Part shown: positions 2,768-61,632 of the stretch, piece by piece
Layout: every line of letters starts with the position of its first letter
Position numbering within the stretch: the stretch's first letter is position 1
From: Methanogenium sp. S4BF
Lineage (GTDB): Archaea; Halobacteriota; Methanomicrobia; Methanomicrobiales; Methanomicrobiaceae
DNA: 64,000 nt
Direction: 5' to 3'
Assembly (NCBI RefSeq): GCF_029633965.1
Contig: NZ_CP091277.1
Coordinates: forward strand, 310,001 to 374,000
The notes under the pieces: generated by a model
What the model was told of the DNA's origin: nothing
The model's database searches: none
What the model saw: the letters and a program-made list of their open reading frames with translations, nothing else
Program-made: the position numbers and the translations under genes

Positions 2768-3514
2768 CTACTCAATCTCATCAATATGGACCAGCTGTGA
2801 TACAGGGATCAGCCCCTTCATCGCGGTTGTATCGGCCCATTTTCCTGATTCAATAAATGCACCGATGGGATTTGCTCCGCCAATCATGACGATGCCTTGA
2901 TAATTTGTTGTTATCGGGACACCAAACATGGATCTGTTTGGGCTGCTGACATCCAGGATGCCGGTAAAACCAACTGACTGAAACTGGTCGAGAATCTCAA
3001 AGAGGAGTGGTTCTGCCTCCATATGTGATTCCCGGATATTTGCAAGTATGCTGCCTCTTCCCGACTGGATTACTCCCATGATGGCGGTCGATCCCTGATC
3101 GATCAACACCTGTGTCGGATCAATCGTTGTCGCATCATATCGTATCAGGGACGTAAATCTGCGGGGTGTGTGATCTCTTATTTCCAGCAGTCCGCCGCCA
3201 ATGGGATTGATGGGGATGCCGTTTCTCAGCAGTATCGCATCAAGGGTGATGCTGCACATGGTAACGATGCCGCAATGGCCCTTTGGTATGGTCTTCTCTC
3301 CAATCTCCTCTCCCTCATCAGCAACGAGCATCCTGTCACTTACACAGATTCCTGCTTTATGTGACTGGTGAATGATATCAACTGCATAATTGCGATCTTC
3401 CGCTTTGATAAGGGTGAGATTAAAGATCACTTTGCCGTTTTCTGTTGCCGGATCGTAGGTAACCTGAAGTGCATATTCATCGATGCGATGATTGACAAAT
3501 TTTAATTGTTCCAT
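2768..3514 (-). CDS. NrpR-II, stand-alone NrpR effector domain
   Basis: A 248-residue protein that aligns by eye with the effector half of the convergent NrpR-I: shared blocks are VGFISACSITMDG against CGIVTMCSITLDA, YRGTTIDPLSLFI against YDATTIDPTQVLI, and GSGVALANVRE against GRGSILANIRE. It has no DNA-binding domain. In Methanosarcina the equivalent NrpRII binds NrpRI and is needed for repression, so a co-repressor role is inferred here. It lies on the same strand as, and 108 nt behind, the FrhB-like and glutamate synthase genes, with its own TATA-like box at 3605-3618. Confidence 0.85.
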   Translation of the reverse strand: MEQLKFVNHRIDEYALQVTYDPATENGKVIFNLTLIKAEDRNYAVDIIHQSHKAGICVSDRMLVADEGEEIGEKTIPKGHCGIVTMCSITLDAILLRNGIPINPIGGGLLEIRDHTPRRFTSLIRYDATTIDPTQVLIDQGSTAIMGVIQSGRGSILANIRESHMEAEPLLFEILDQFQSVGFTGILDVSSPNRSMFGVPITTNYQGIVMIGGANPIGAFIESGKWADTTAMKGLIPVSQLVHIDEIE

Positions 3515-3604
3515 GGTAGGTACCCTCTGGCTGATACCGGGTAATTCAAATAATGATATTGTGGTGTAATCATCCAGAAACTTATGCAGTTCTTAATTAG
3601 GATT

Positions 3605-3618
3605 TTTATATATAAAAA
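3605..3618 (-). promoter_or_regulatory. TATA box for nrpR-II
   Basis: On the minus strand TTTTTATATATAAA lies just behind the stop codon of the FrhB-like gene and about 90 nt before the nrpR-II ATG. This suggests that nrpR-II can be transcribed independently of the glutamate synthase operon, with a leader of roughly 65 nt. Confidence 0.4.
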
Positions 3619-3622
3619 GAGG

Positions 3623-4660
3623 TTATTTGTGGATCCGTTCTGATTTTTTCTGTGAGAGCTTTCCGATGGCATTCAGATCGCATGTATGCTCTGCAATGAC
3701 CAGTCTGCCGGTTTTCTCTGCATGATGTACAAATCCCTCCCCGGCAGTTGTCCTGACGATGATGGTTGTTTCACCATCGGGGCTTCCGATGGAACCTGCG
3801 GATATGTCTGAATCAACTGCTGTGAGGTCACCACATGCATGGCATCCGTTTCGGACACAGTCATCAAGGGCGTGCAGAGGAATTTCTCTGGTAGTATTGT
3901 CAGTGCAGGTAAGAATCAGTTTTCCCCGCACGTCAAGCTTTGATATCTGCCATGGCTCAATTGCCATTTCATGAACGATTTTATCCTGGATGAGCATTTC
4001 ATAATCGAATGTTTCTGTGCAGAATAGCCCGATAATCAGCCGGATTGCTCTTCCGAACGGTCTGAGCAGATCATGATCTGACGTCTTCATGACCCGGGCT
4101 GCTGATGCAGCACAGGGGACGCCGACAATAGCAATCTTTTCGATTTTTTGTGTTATAACCGTGGATTTCAGTGCTGCAAGTGTGGGAACCCACCAGGCAT
4201 ATCTGCTGCCTGCGGTAGCGATTAATGCTTCTTTTTTTGTAATAACGACTGATTGTGGTTTCTGCGTCCATGGGTCGGCAGTTACTGTTATTACTGCATC
4301 AATAAGCCCCTCTTCGAGGGCGTTTGCAAGAATTGCTGTTACTGCACCGCCGCTCTGTCTTTTTTCGACATCGAATCCGGAGTGGGCAGCAAAAATTCGT
4401 GTATATTTGCCAAGACCTGTCTTTTCCATCCGGGATTTCAGCTGCTCTCTTGTTCTTGGGCAGACTGCGTAACATGCGCCACATGGCACATTGTCTGTTA
4501 CTTCCTTACAGTAGCCGGTCTGGATGGGTGATTTGCTGTTTTTATCATGGGCAAATATAATGGCATCTGCAGGGCACACCGCAACGCATGCACCGCATCC
4601 CGAACAGATATCCGTGTCCCAGACTTCTTCTTTAAGATTCTGATAATTTTTCCCTGACAT
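3623..4660 (-). CDS. FrhB-like F420-dehydrogenase subunit linked to glutamate synthase
   Basis: A 345-residue protein. Residues 15-70 hold a ferredoxin-like region (CSGCGACVAVCP, then CGACYAVCP), followed by the FrhB N and C domains (QSGGAVTAIL, GVPCAASAARVM, GLFCTETFDYEML). FrhB-family subunits bind FAD, iron-sulfur and coenzyme F420 in hydrogenases, formate dehydrogenase, Fpo and Fsr. It ends a tight minus-strand operon with the three glutamate synthase pieces; the preceding gene stops 6 nt before its start. The context fits the F420-dependent glutamate synthase (FGltS) proposed from FrhB comparisons, with F420H2 replacing NADPH or ferredoxin as donor. Family membership is clear; the electron donor is inferred. 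Confidence 0.85.
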   Translation of the reverse strand: MSGKNYQNLKEEVWDTDICSGCGACVAVCPADAIIFAHDKNSKSPIQTGYCKEVTDNVPCGACYAVCPRTREQLKSRMEKTGLGKYTRIFAAHSGFDVEKRQSGGAVTAILANALEEGLIDAVITVTADPWTQKPQSVVITKKEALIATAGSRYAWWVPTLAALKSTVITQKIEKIAIVGVPCAASAARVMKTSDHDLLRPFGRAIRLIIGLFCTETFDYEMLIQDKIVHEMAIEPWQISKLDVRGKLILTCTDNTTREIPLHALDDCVRNGCHACGDLTAVDSDISAGSIGSPDGETTIIVRTTAGEGFVHHAEKTGRLVIAEHTCDLNAIGKLSQKKSERIHK

Positions 4661-57296: not shown

Positions 57297-58502
57297 GTGA
57301 TGAAACTGCAGCTGCAGATATCAAGCCGGATCCGGCTATTTCTGACTGGATTTATTGCTCTTCTTATCTGTGCGTTTGCCGCGAGCGCAGCCGGCATTTA
57401 TCTCGGTTCAGTGAGTGATGTCATCTATCTTCTGCCGGGACTCATGGTCATGGTGCCTCCGTCCATTAACATGCGGGGGAGTATCTCAGGTGTGCTTGCG
57501 TCCCGGCTTTCATCATCAATGCACCTTGGGGCATTTGATGTGGAATTTTCCCGTGAGTCTGTGCTGGGATCAAATCTGAGGGCTTCGTTTTTATCAACGG
57601 TCATCATTGGCTTCTGGCTGGGGCTGATTGTCTCCGTTATCTGCCTTGTCTTTGGTATTCAGGGTCTCAGTATCATCGATTATGTGGTGATCTCTGTCGT
57701 GTCGGGTATCATCTCCGGGCTCATTGTTATGGGTATCACGCTTATTGTGGTGCTTATCAGTTACCGCTTCGGTCTGGACCTCGATATGATTGCAGCGCCT
57801 ACCGTGACAACCGCCGGGGATATCGTCACCCTGCCGGTCCTTGTTCTTACCACCCTCTTCTTTGTTGCAATGGGGCCGCTCGTGCTCAATGTCCTCTTTA
57901 TCATGGTTCTTCTTGTGGCAGCTGCCTGTATTGTCTATTCAGTATATCTTGATGAACCGGTCTTTGAGATAAACAGGGAAATTCTGCCGCTTCTTCTGAT
58001 TCTCTCCTTTGTCGGAACACTTGCAGGGCTAACTTATACGCTTGATATCGAGCAGCTCATCGAATTTGCCGTATTTCTGATCATTATCCCGCCCTTTACC
58101 GGCCTGTGCGGATCTATAGGGGGGATTCTCTGTTCCCGGCTTGCAACCGGTATGCACATGGGTGAAATTGATGTGAAGGTTTACCCTCAGCGGTCGGTGC
58201 TGGGGCAGTTTGGCGGTTCATATCTCTATGCAGTGTTTGTCTTTCCCCTGATTGGTCTGATTGCTCAGGGAGCTTCAGGGCTGATGGGTATATCCTCACC
58301 CGGCCTTTTGGCACTCATGAGCATCTGTACGGTGTCAGGGCTTGTTGTCATAACGATTGTAAATCTTATCGCCTATGCAACAGCAGGATTATCCTTCCGG
58401 TACGGGCTTGACCCGGATAATTTTGGCATTCCCGTGATAACCAGTACAATAGATTTGGTTGGTGCGGGTATCCTGGTTGCCGTTATTAATATACTCATAT
58501 AA
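57297..58502 (+). CDS. MgtE/SLC41-type divalent cation transporter, duplicated, without cytoplasmic domains
   Basis: A 401-residue membrane protein with two MgtE transmembrane repeats: first PPSINMRGSISGVLASRLSS with MHLGAFDVE, second TGLCGSIGGILCSRLATGMH with MGEIDV. About ten membrane segments. It lacks the N and CBS domains that gate bacterial MgtE, as do eukaryotic SLC41 transporters. Probably carries Mg2+. GTG 57297 or the next codon, ATG 57300, starts the protein. The PhoU/RCK-C gene follows after 55 nt. Confidence 0.88.
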   Translation: MMKLQLQISSRIRLFLTGFIALLICAFAASAAGIYLGSVSDVIYLLPGLMVMVPPSINMRGSISGVLASRLSSSMHLGAFDVEFSRESVLGSNLRASFLSTVIIGFWLGLIVSVICLVFGIQGLSIIDYVVISVVSGIISGLIVMGITLIVVLISYRFGLDLDMIAAPTVTTAGDIVTLPVLVLTTLFFVAMGPLVLNVLFIMVLLVAAACIVYSVYLDEPVFEINREILPLLLILSFVGTLAGLTYTLDIEQLIEFAVFLIIIPPFTGLCGSIGGILCSRLATGMHMGEIDVKVYPQRSVLGQFGGSYLYAVFVFPLIGLIAQGASGLMGISSPGLLALMSICTVSGLVVITIVNLIAYATAGLSFRYGLDPDNFGIPVITSTIDLVGAGILVAVINILI

Positions 58503-58557
58503 GGATATACGATAATATTAGATACGACAAAGTGTATCATGAAAGGACTATACGCCC

Positions 58558-59742
58558 ATGAGTGATTTAGAGTACCAGCCGGTCAGTTTTAAAGATGTAC
58601 TGATTGAGATGAAGGACATCTCAGAACTGATGGTTGATCTTTCTTATTCTGCAATTCTTTTTGAAAGCCGGGAGATTGCCCAGGAAGTTATCACCCTTGA
58701 AGAACGGATGAACCAACTGGTCTACCAGGCACGGATACAGAGTATCCTCGGGTCCCGGAGGGTTGAAGAGGCTGAGGCAATGAGCGGCATGCTGCAGGTT
58801 AGTGAAGCGGCCGAAAAAATCTCAAATTCTGCGTCTGAAATTGCCACCATCATCCTGAAGGATGTGAAGTTTCCTGCAAAACTCAGAATTGCGATGCCTG
58901 ATGCTGAAGAAGTTACCGAACGCGTGGTTGTTGCCAAAGAGAGCACTATTGATGGTGTGACTTTAGGCGAGCAAAAACTCCAGAGCAGAACCGGAATGCG
59001 TGTCATTGCAATCAGGCGTGGAGTGTCGTGGATTTATGACCCCGAGCGCGACACCCGGATTCTTGACGGTGATATCATCATCGCAAAAGGTCCTGAGAGC
59101 GGGATTGATCCGTTATATGACCTTTGCGGAGCAGAGATCCCGGCAAACGATGAGTTTCCGGAAGGAAGTGTTGTAACAGACCTTGACCGGGCGGTTCGTC
59201 TGATTGTCAAGATGAAGGATATCTCTGAGCTTGCCGTCGGTCTTGCCTATACATCGCTGCTCTTTAACAACAGGGAAGTGGCTGATGAGGTGGTCTCCCT
59301 TGGCACCCGGATGGATGACATGCGGTATAAACTGGATCTCTGGATTCTTGAAGCCGCGAAACGCATCTCGAATGTTGAGTATCTCCGTGGTTTGCTCTAT
59401 ATGTCATCATTTGCGGATAATATTACCAATGCCGCAGGTTCGATTATCGATGTCATTTTACGGGACATCGAGATTCCGCCGGTATTTAAGAAGATTGTAC
59501 GTGAGTCTGATGAGATCATTTCACGGATTGAAGTTCAGGAGGGTTCTGAACTTGCCGGAAAAAGCCTGAAAGAAGCTTCGCTGAGCACGGTGTCCGGTAT
59601 GGTCGTCCTTGCTGTCCGGCACAAGAATAAATGGAAATATCGTCCGAGAAAGGATGAACAGTTACGATCCGGAGATATTATCATCGCCAAAGGGCGCCGG
59701 GACGGAGAATGCCGTCTGTATGACCTCGCCCGCGGAACATGA
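58558..59742 (+). CDS. tandem PhoU plus RCK-C (TrkA-C) regulatory protein
   Basis: A 394-residue soluble protein with a PhoU-like helical domain (about 12-105), an RCK-C domain (about 118-190: VVAKESTIDGVTLGEQKLQS, GMRVIAIRRG, LDGDIIIAKGPES), then a second PhoU (about 210-300) and a second RCK-C (about 315-392: SELAGKSLKEASLSTVSGMV, LRSGDIIIAKGR). RCK-C domains gate transporters by binding ligands; PhoU domains couple phosphate or ion status. Coming directly after the cation transporter that has no gating domain, it probably gates it in trans. Inference. Confidence 0.85.
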   Translation: MSDLEYQPVSFKDVLIEMKDISELMVDLSYSAILFESREIAQEVITLEERMNQLVYQARIQSILGSRRVEEAEAMSGMLQVSEAAEKISNSASEIATIILKDVKFPAKLRIAMPDAEEVTERVVVAKESTIDGVTLGEQKLQSRTGMRVIAIRRGVSWIYDPERDTRILDGDIIIAKGPESGIDPLYDLCGAEIPANDEFPEGSVVTDLDRAVRLIVKMKDISELAVGLAYTSLLFNNREVADEVVSLGTRMDDMRYKLDLWILEAAKRISNVEYLRGLLYMSSFADNITNAAGSIIDVILRDIEIPPVFKKIVRESDEIISRIEVQEGSELAGKSLKEASLSTVSGMVVLAVRHKNKWKYRPRKDEQLRSGDIIIAKGRRDGECRLYDLARGT

Positions 59743-59796: not shown

Positions 59797-61632
59797 ATGA
59801 GTAATGGAGAAATGACTGTTTACAACCTCTCTTCCGCATGTGATGTGGGAGATGTGGAAGAAGGTAAGGTATATGTTGTGCGTGTACAGGGGTTCGCTGA
59901 CTTTGGCACATTTGTGTACCTGAATGACCGGATTAAGGGTCTGATACACAAATCCAATGTGAAAACCCATCATCAGGAAGGGGAGACGGTATTCGTTCGT
60001 GTACGGCAGGTGCGCAAGAACGGCAATATCGATCTCGAGGAGATCGTCCCGACAAGGTACCGGACAGAGACAGTGGCAAAGAAACTCTCAACCATCCGGC
60101 TCAGTGACCTCCCGGATAAGGTCGGCAGGCATGTCACCATTGAAGCGGAAGTCGCCCAGATTAAGCAGACTTCAGGCCCCACGATATTCACTATCGTTGA
60201 TGAGACCGGGTCAGAGGATGCTGCAGCATTCATTGAAGCGGGTGTGCGTGCCTATCCTGAGGTTGAACTTGAGGATATGGTCTCAGTCTCGGGTGAGGTC
60301 ATGCTCAGGAACAACCGCCTTCAGATCGAGGTTTCAAATATGCGTGTTCTCTCCGGTGAAGAACGGGAGAATGTGGAAAAGCGTATTGCAGAGGCACTTG
60401 ATCTGCGCGCTGAACCGGAAGACATCCCGTTCATGATCGAAAGCGAGGTGTTGGAACGCCTCAAACCTGAGATGCAGAAGGTAGCCAAAATAATCCGGAA
60501 GGCTATCTTTACCGCCCAGCCGATTGTGCTGCGCCACCATGCTGATGCAGATGGCATTACCGCCGCGGTCGCTGTTGAACGTGCAGTCACCTCTCTTATT
60601 CGTGAGAACGGCGGTGATCCTGACACAGAGAGCCATATGTTCAAGCGTGCTCCCTCCAAAGCCCCATTCTATGAGATTGAGGATATCACCCGTGACCTCG
60701 ACTTCGCCCTGAAGGACTTTGTCAGATTTGGCCAGAAACTGCCGCTCATCGTCATGATGGACAATGGCTCCACCGAAGAGGATGAGCCGTCCTACCGGAT
60801 GGCGAAGATATACGATATCCCGATTGTGGTCGTTGACCATCACCACCCCGATGAAAGCACGGATGCGTATCTCGATGCACATGTGAACCCATACCATGTC
60901 GGCGGAGACTTTGGTGTGACAGCAGGTATGCTCGGCGCTGAGCTTGCCCGCATGATCTTCCCGGGTGTGGAGAATGAGATCCGCTATTTCCCCGCAGTAG
61001 CAGCAGTGGGAGACCGGAGTGAAGCACCGGAACGCCAGCAGTATCTGGACCTTGTGGCGGGCGAATGGAGCGAGGAGCACTGCAAGAATATCGCCCTTGC
61101 TCTTGATTACGAACAGTTCTGGCTCCGGTTTAATGATGGGCGTGAAATTGTAAAGGATATCCTCGGTGTCAATGGAAACCGGGATAGACATGAGCGTCTG
61201 ATTGCACTGCTCGTAAAGGAAGCAAATCTTGCTATCGAAGAGCAGCTGAGTGCGTCAATGCCGCATGTCATCGAACAGGACCTTTCAAACACTGCGAAAC
61301 TCTTCATGCTGGATGTGGAAATCTATGCACACCGGTTCACCTTCCCGCCACCCGGAAAGACCTCCGGCGAAGTGCATGACATCCTCTGCAGGCGCAATGA
61401 GGGCGCACCGGTGGTGACGCTGGGTATCGGGCCCGATTTTGTTGTCATCCGGTCGCGTGGTGTTCTGATGAACATTCCGAAGATGGTGCGTGAACTCAGG
61501 GAAGAGGTAATCGGCGGCGGCGTGAACGGCGGTGGTCATCTTGTCGTTGGAAGCATAAAATTCGTTGAAGGAATGCGGGAAACCGTTATTAAGAGCCTCA
61601 TAGCAAAGATTGAGGAGTTTCCTGTAGAATAA
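59797..61632 (+). CDS. archaeal RecJ-like DHH phosphoesterase with S1 and OB domains
   Basis: A 611-residue protein. An S1 RNA-binding domain (about 18-80: VEEGKVYVVRVQGFADFGTF, IKGLIHKSNVK) and an OB domain (about 105-185) precede a DHH domain with motif I RHHADADGITAAVAVERA, FPVV-type IVMMDNGSTEED and motif VVDHHHPDES, then DHHA1 with GGGVNGGGHLVVGS. Such proteins cut single-stranded DNA or RNA. S1 plus OB suggests action on RNA or hybrid substrates. ATG 59797 opens the frame; ATG 59812 has the better ribosome site (GGAGA). Single gene. Confidence 0.88.
   Translation: MSNGEMTVYNLSSACDVGDVEEGKVYVVRVQGFADFGTFVYLNDRIKGLIHKSNVKTHHQEGETVFVRVRQVRKNGNIDLEEIVPTRYRTETVAKKLSTIRLSDLPDKVGRHVTIEAEVAQIKQTSGPTIFTIVDETGSEDAAAFIEAGVRAYPEVELEDMVSVSGEVMLRNNRLQIEVSNMRVLSGEERENVEKRIAEALDLRAEPEDIPFMIESEVLERLKPEMQKVAKIIRKAIFTAQPIVLRHHADADGITAAVAVERAVTSLIRENGGDPDTESHMFKRAPSKAPFYEIEDITRDLDFALKDFVRFGQKLPLIVMMDNGSTEEDEPSYRMAKIYDIPIVVVDHHHPDESTDAYLDAHVNPYHVGGDFGVTAGMLGAELARMIFPGVENEIRYFPAVAAVGDRSEAPERQQYLDLVAGEWSEEHCKNIALALDYEQFWLRFNDGREIVKDILGVNGNRDRHERLIALLVKEANLAIEEQLSASMPHVIEQDLSNTAKLFMLDVEIYAHRFTFPPPGKTSGEVHDILCRRNEGAPVVTLGIGPDFVVIRSRGVLMNIPKMVRELREEVIGGGVNGGGHLVVGSIKFVEGMRETVIKSLIAKIEEFPVE

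Follow-up and report, generated by a model that had tools for sequence, protein, structure and literature searches.

An SLC41/MgtE-type transporter and a tandem PhoU-RCK_C protein as a candidate two-gene cation transport module in Methanogenium and related archaea

INTRODUCTION

The described systems closest to the membrane protein considered here are bacterial MgtE (PF01769; Thermus thermophilus structures 2ZY9, 2YVX, and 4U9L) and the SLC41 family. In bacterial MgtE, the Mg2+-binding cytosolic N-lobe and plug shut the pore, and MgATP binds to the CBS domains, as set out in passages of a 2022 review (PMC9276622). A double, CBS-less MgtE of archaea is already in print in the same passages, in a tree that includes Methanoculleus thermophilus; the SLC41 family is said there to be one that "might be differently regulated," comparative genomics is called for, and these passages name no regulator (PMC9276622).

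For the soluble protein, the closest described relative is PH0236 of Pyrococcus horikoshii (PDB 1vct, 2bkn, 2bko, and 2bkp), a protein of 205 aa with a single PhoU-RCK_C unit. The titles of its PDB entries give no proven function, and no published function for this structure was found in the open-access literature. The RCK_C fold is also that of KtrA/TrkA, MthK, KhtT, and BusR. KtrA, TrkA, and KhtT are separate soluble subunits; in the gating-ring subunits KtrA, TrkA, and MthK, the ring is built by the RCK_N (TrkA_N) domain, and RCK_C domains act as dimers. PhoU, the accessory protein of PstSCAB, typically contains two PhoU domains; it is a partner that reports the state of the Pst transporter and does not serve as a pore gate.

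Here, a pair of neighboring genes that brings these protein types together is described from a 64,000-nucleotide stretch of the Methanogenium sp. S4BF genome (contig NZ_CP091277.1, positions 310,001 to 374,000), referred to below as the window. No paper on a pairing of an MgtE-type transporter with a PhoU-RCK protein was found in the open-access literature, and in the part of PMC3087415 that we drew on, MgtE, TrkAH, and PhoU are mentioned in separate sections only. As far as these searches show, the transporter type (archaeal, double-domain, CBS-less, and SLC41-like) is known and its coupling to a PhoU-RCK protein is new to the open-access literature.

RESULTS AND DISCUSSION

Genomic context of the pair

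The two genes lie on the same strand, 55 bp apart (Table 1), with an RNase Z gene upstream and a HAN nuclease homolog downstream. The latter (window 59797-61632, + strand) scored 769.9 bits, slightly under the NCBIfam cutoff of 840. No pst operon gene stands beside the PhoU-RCK gene, whose flanks are RNase Z, the transporter, and the HAN nuclease homolog, and a search for RNA families close to the pair, Mg2+ riboswitches included, gave no match. The transporter start was taken as the ATG at 57300, with an alternative GTG at 57297. The genome containing the window has just two PF01769 matches, both within this transporter, and no MgtE_N anywhere. The nearest public relatives of the soluble protein, among 80 loci listed, are from Methanogenium contigs (94 to 95% identity).

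Table 1. Features of the gene pair in window coordinates
Feature	Coordinates	Strand	Basis
Gene for the 400-aa SLC41/MgtE-type transporter with two MgtE domains	57300..58502	+	ORF, Pfam, AlphaFold2 model (mean pLDDT 90.2)
Transporter half 1, residues 1-189, five-helix MgtE unit	57300..57866	+	Pfam, half alignment, model; split relatives end here
Asp174, half-1 counterpart of the pore aspartate	57819..57821	+	D in 59/59 aligned sequences
Linker membrane helix between halves, residues 190-218	57867..57953	+	Model, hydropathy; absent from split relatives
Transporter half 2, residues 219-400	57954..58499	+	Pfam, profile match, VIA-align
Asp385, aligned to 2yvx chain residue 455	58452..58454	+	D in 59/59 aligned sequences
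Gene for the 394-aa soluble protein with tandem PhoU-RCK_C units (putative regulator in trans)	58558..59742	+	ORF, Pfam, model
PhoU domain 1, residues 10-100	58585..58857	+	Pfam, model, VIA-align
RCK_C domain 1, residues 118-190	58909..59127	+	Pfam, model
PhoU domain 2, residues 209-301	59182..59460	+	Pfam, model, VIA-align
RCK_C domain 2, residues 318-391	59509..59730	+	Pfam, model, VIA-align

A double MgtE unit without gating domains

The MgtE domain PF01769 matches the transporter in two stretches (whole-protein E value, 4.1e-31), and neither MgtE_N, CBS, nor any other Pfam domain matches it at an E value of ≤1; the transporter therefore lacks MgtE_N and CBS domains. Its halves share 54 identical residues of 164 aligned (Z score of 19 against 500 shuffles), a repeat far above chance, and the preliminary description of a transporter with two MgtE repeats and no gating domains is thereby borne out. 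The protein resembles bacterial MgtE in its membrane fold and in the pore aspartate motif of half 2, but it carries two units in one chain, whereas MgtE is a homodimer, and it also differs in lacking the MgtE_N and CBS domains, in having an extra linker helix, and in having GS for GN in the first motif. SLC41 proteins and the archaeal double-motif MgtE proteins share with it the two MgtE units in one chain and the lack of CBS domains. Compared with the published double MgtE, a soluble partner is proposed here, and two separate half-genes take the place of the single gene in many relatives.

In the AlphaFold2 model (59-row alignment; pTM, 0.87), each half has five long helices, and one additional helix, residues 193 to 216, lies between the halves. 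Residues 194 to 212 are the most hydrophobic stretch of the protein, with a mean hydropathy of 3.06. The top five VIA-align entries for the model are all MgtE (Z scores of 12.6 to 15.1), with 4u9l being the best (Z score of 15.1; rmsd of 3.6 over 177 residues); the first non-MgtE entry is an MlaFEDB subunit (Z score of 11.8). A Foldseek search with the same model placed MATE proteins ahead of MgtE, with no match at an E value of ≤0.001. When a profile was built from the 59 sequences, it matched the membrane domain of MgtE (E value, 1.1e-4), and this alignment pairs Asp371 and Asp385 with the two Asp residues of the last MgtE helix. Provided that the 473-residue 2yvx chain includes a 23-residue tag, Asp385 presumably corresponds to D432 in MgtE of T. 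thermophilus. Two motifs, PX6GN and P(D/A)X4PX6D, are named in the passages of the review cited above (PMC9276622). The latter is exact in half 2, with each fixed position conserved in 59/59 aligned sequences; in half 1, its first P is replaced by L in the window protein and is present in 17/59 sequences. PX6GN itself is lacking, both halves of the window transporter having PX6GS, and its N is found among the 59 sequences in 29 for half 1 and 14 for half 2. The membrane protein, which is without the usual built-in control domains, is likely to be a magnesium transporter.

In many relatives, the transporter is encoded by two genes of about 185 to 214 codons each, often with a 4-base overlap. 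Among 71 half-size ORFs collected (38 N-halves and 33 C-halves), the match of the N-halves ends at window residue 188 to 190 in 37 cases and at 194 in one, and that of the C-halves begins at residue 217 or later in 32 cases, with one exception at 201. The linker helix is therefore absent where the halves are separate proteins. We take the exceptional C-half to be that of genome G010, a fused gene interrupted by an in-frame TGA; the G010 transporter (L081:1761-2969, - strand) has one such codon, immediately before the linker helix. From this we infer a rule whereby two five-helix halves in one chain would require an additional helix to adopt the parallel arrangement of two MgtE subunits.

A tandem PhoU-RCK_C protein

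The product of the next gene has the domain order PhoU, RCK_C, PhoU, RCK_C. Pfam matched TrkA_C/RCK_C and PhoU in two stretches each (E values of 9.9e-28 and 9.9e-12, respectively), and its halves share 65 of 176 aligned residues (Z score of 46 against 500 shuffles), confirming the earlier claim of a soluble protein in which both PhoU and RCK_C are internally duplicated. TrkA_N (RCK_N) has no match in this protein at an E value of ≤1. In a Foldseek search with its AlphaFold2 model (54-row alignment; pLDDT, 86.8; pTM, 0.86), PH0236 of P. horikoshii ranked first (1vct, 2bko, and 2bkn), with target TM scores of 0.93 to 0.95. The similarity to PH0236 extends over the whole PhoU-RCK_C unit (42% identity over 188 residues, rmsd of 1.6; E value of 1.6e-68 and VIA-align Z score of 19 for 1vct), but two such units stand in tandem in the window protein.

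The two PhoU domains jointly (residues 8 to 306) match whole PhoU proteins in VIA-align (4q25; Z score of 21.0 over 196 residues), as expected if they form one body, and the duplication therefore restores one PhoU body with a pair of RCK_C domains. The preliminary description had read the matching duplications as one PhoU/RCK_C half serving each MgtE half. This reading is weakened, since a PhoU protein normally has two PhoU domains, RCK_C domains are dimeric, and the model superposes on a whole PhoU, which gives the duplication a simpler cause. The predicted MgtE and PhoU folds speak for the joint module proposed below. Unlike PhoU, the window protein has one RCK_C domain separating its PhoU domains and another following the second of them, and no Pst genes adjoin its gene. 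PhoU domain 1 keeps the Glu/Asp-x-x-x-Asp pattern, which we take to be the metal motif of PhoU (E23 in 53/54 and D27 in 54/54 aligned sequences); in PhoU domain 2, the second position of the pattern is Gly in 49/54. In VIA-align, the RCK_C domain of the window protein matches MthK, KhtT, BusR, and KtrA. Compared with KtrA/TrkA, MthK, KhtT, and BusR, it lacks RCK_N and has PhoU domains, and its co-conserved partner is an MgtE/SLC41-type transporter rather than a K+ transporter.

Distribution and linkage of the two genes

The co-occurrence of the two genes is nearly obligate. With the window proteins as queries, 38 of 61 genomes of the class contained both genes, with a full-length PhoU-RCK match, 23 contained neither, and none contained only one; 9 of the 23 pair-less genomes showed short RCK_C matches only, in other proteins. 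The absences comprise all of one family and a portion of a second. Across 246 genomes of the phylum, PhoU-RCK (cutoff E value, ≤1e-10) was found in 210 genomes and PF01769 in 209; after sorting of these by hand, 202 genomes had both, including G168 and G228, whose transporters are cut by contig ends, 34 had neither, 8 had PhoU-RCK only, and 2 had the transporter only. The Fisher odds ratio for the phylum is 429 with kinship ignored, and such values overstate the co-occurrence because the class pattern reflects few independent gains or losses. The preliminary description had named frequent occurrence of one gene without the other as evidence against a two-component system. Single-gene genomes make up 0 of the 38 carriers in the class and 10 of the 212 in the phylum, so that the dedicated partnership stands, and the half-by-half pairing is the part of that proposal that has lost ground.

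The genomes with PhoU-RCK and no PF01769 match (G075, G140, G175, G224, G235, G255, and G259) are assemblies of 84 to 92% completeness, and the two with only the transporter (G203 and G211) belong to one genus and are 95% complete; searches with the transporter and PhoU-RCK profiles, respectively, agree with these absences. G221 lacks an SLC41-type transporter, and its PhoU-RCK frame, which lies beside a CBS-type MgtE gene, has unit 1 only, with the RCK_C domain cut at position 53 of 71; it is a decayed remnant of the regulator in a transporter-less genome. Where the sole PF01769 match is a single, strong one of the CBS/N kind, as judged from score and frame length (G002, G068, G086, and G201), PhoU-RCK is found in none of the four. 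MgtE_N was found in 12 of the 61 class genomes, 4 being among the 38 pair carriers and 8 among the 23 pair-less genomes (P = 0.043, kinship ignored). In G007, G008, G035, and G044, MgtE_N lies in frames of 425 to 494 aa without the PF01769 membrane domain. In G221 (L245:1670-2497, 2368-2916, and 3146-3814, + strand), a single MgtE unit precedes a separate gene that by eye is CBS-pair-like, and a PhoU-like gene comes next; this may be a further example of control of MgtE in trans.

In the 38 class carriers, the two genes are ≤500 bp apart in 27, 1.2 to 2.9 kb apart in 3, and far apart or on other contigs in 8. As a control for linkage, neighbors were compared at the 80 listed loci, all from the window's phylum judging by their titles, and the pair is linked in three arrangements. 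The 28 Methanomicrobiales loci with the window's arrangement have the transporter (cut by contig ends in some), PhoU-RCK, and the HAN nuclease in all 28 and RNase Z in 25. At 12 loci of Methanocorpusculum and near relatives, HAN is present in 12/12 and the transporter adjoins in 0/12; genus g16 is in the same unlinked state, with the transporter elsewhere in all six genomes. At 40 loci from other orders, the transporter adjoins PhoU-RCK in 32, and RNase Z and HAN are found in none; 4 of the 8 loci without an adjoining transporter have less than 600 bp of upstream sequence. The 32 linked loci carry two half-genes in 26 cases, a fused gene in 5, and a single half in 1, and the transporter is on the opposite strand in 6. 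In GC-rich, haloarchaea-like genomes, the pair is often unlinked (e.g., G128, G165, G176, G194, G253, G257, and G261), with the two genes adjacent in G225 and G237. Co-occurrence thus persists despite unlinking, inversion, and splitting of the transporter into half-genes. At L167 and L168, distant relatives of three more genes of the window block also lie nearby, and these extra conserved neighbors speak against an effect of the pair alone.

No natural fusion of the transporter with PhoU-RCK was seen among the relatives. Three long PhoU-RCK open frames from some GC-rich genomes (615, 749, and 777 aa) were considered as fusions, but they contain no further convincing Pfam domain (one additional sub-cutoff match among the three) and are probably over-long open frames. 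An 813-aa frame around the transporter in G020 was likewise rejected, the two genes there being separate and about 2.9 kb apart.

Function of the pair

Since the PhoU-RCK protein is kept and lost together with the transporter, it is a strong candidate to supply the control that the transporter lacks, and the pair probably forms one divalent-cation transport module in which a dedicated trans-acting regulator replaces the CBS and N gating domains. The cation of this single archaeal module would most likely be Mg2+. The membrane protein would be of the SLC41 type, its two five-helix MgtE units being kept parallel within one chain by the linker helix, and one chain would therefore correspond to an MgtE dimer minus its cytosolic gating domains. 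The soluble protein would be a dedicated cytosolic regulator, in which the two PhoU domains would form one PhoU-like body carrying two RCK_C domains able to sense a ligand. It would contact the transporter, control transport directly, and act in trans in the role that the N and CBS domains have in bacterial MgtE.

The transporter may instead need the PhoU-RCK protein not as a gate but as an assembly or stability aid or a relay of its state, as PhoU is for Pst, which we regard as unlikely. The PhoU domains are predicted to fold like a whole PhoU, the role of PhoU in the Pst system fits, and a gate and a helper are not separable by co-occurrence, but the two conserved ligand-type RCK_C domains in each chain suggest, from the sequence, control by a small ligand. 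Decidedly unlikely is a reading in which PhoU-RCK regulates K+ transport through Trk/Ktr or K+ channels and accompanies an MgtE-like protein only through shared osmotic physiology. RCK_C usually serves K+ transport, many of the best RCK_C matches are K+ systems (KtrC, KtrA, MthK, and KhtT), and the title of PDB entry 1vct is "putative potassium channel related protein"; however, TrkH is present in 59 of the 61 class genomes irrespective of the pair and therefore does not track PhoU-RCK, the conserved neighbor is the MgtE-like gene, and RCK_N is absent. That both are merely conserved neighbors or core genes without joint function is very improbable, for although Methanomicrobiales keep the whole block from RNase Z to HAN and the class pattern rests on few independent losses, beyond this order the pair holds together in either orientation, fused or split, while RNase Z and HAN do not, it co-occurs even where unlinked, and the regulator is a remnant in one transporter-less genome.

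The proposed module would operate beside other Mg2+ transporters. CorA was found in 58 of the 61 class genomes; of the 3 without it, G001 and G058 have the pair and G051 does not. The window genome has two CorA genes (two adjoining pieces being counted as one), and the pair therefore need not be the main Mg2+ route there. CorA as a substitute for the pair was considered and found weak: genomes without the pair have a mean of 2.0 CorA genes and those with it 1.55 (P = 0.014, kinship ignored; split pieces counted once). In G038, a pair carrier, the sole CorA match (C1:1187616-1188480, + strand) is split over two frames, and this genome may therefore lack a working CorA.

The signal would be a metal ion or a nucleotide, with c-di-AMP being the best guess. 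Bacillus subtilis MgtE binds c-di-AMP, proteins with CBS or RCK_C domains are often c-di-AMP bound, and c-di-AMP and Mg2+ levels change in parallel during osmotic stress, as stated in parts of PMC8844918; RCK_C in place of CBS would, by analogy, preserve the same c-di-AMP signal. When the pocket residues of BusR given in a part of PMC8517857 were mapped by hand through the VIA-align register, the hydrophobic positions and an invariant Pro of the c-di-AMP pocket were present in RCK_C, and the polar contacts of BusR were not conserved. The c-di-AMP cyclase domain is uninformative as a discriminating marker for the pair, being present in 61/61 class genomes. The window genome has an ordinary DacZ. 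In a pair-less family of the same order, the DAC domain lies mostly in open frames of about 560 to 680 aa (L228:1478-3151, - strand; L229:214-1983, + strand; and L231:1-1698, + strand); the L228 and L229 frames, when scanned, showed a response-regulator receiver, PAS, and DAC, possibly indicating c-di-AMP synthesis under two-component control. That a trans-acting sensor of c-di-AMP (or metal), made up of PhoU and RCK_C, gates an SLC41-type Mg2+ transporter is put forward tentatively.

Implications

The pair provides a concrete candidate regulator for the question of how SLC41-type transporters without CBS and N domains, the human ones included, are controlled. In a 2014 study, as far as the parts consulted state, known Mg2+ uptake genes were present in only 52 of 80 haloarchaea, and alternate strategies were still to be discovered (PMC4230888). 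Most GC-rich genomes in the phylum sample, which we consider haloarchaea-like, have half-size MgtE genes together with PhoU-RCK, and these may explain part of the haloarchaeal Mg2+ uptake gap. If the proposed function is correct, the half-gene form would be a Mg2+ transporter perhaps overlooked by earlier haloarchaeal surveys, and archaea would couple Mg2+ to K+ and osmotic control by an exchangeable module, with CBS domains acting in cis in bacteria and PhoU-RCK acting in trans here.
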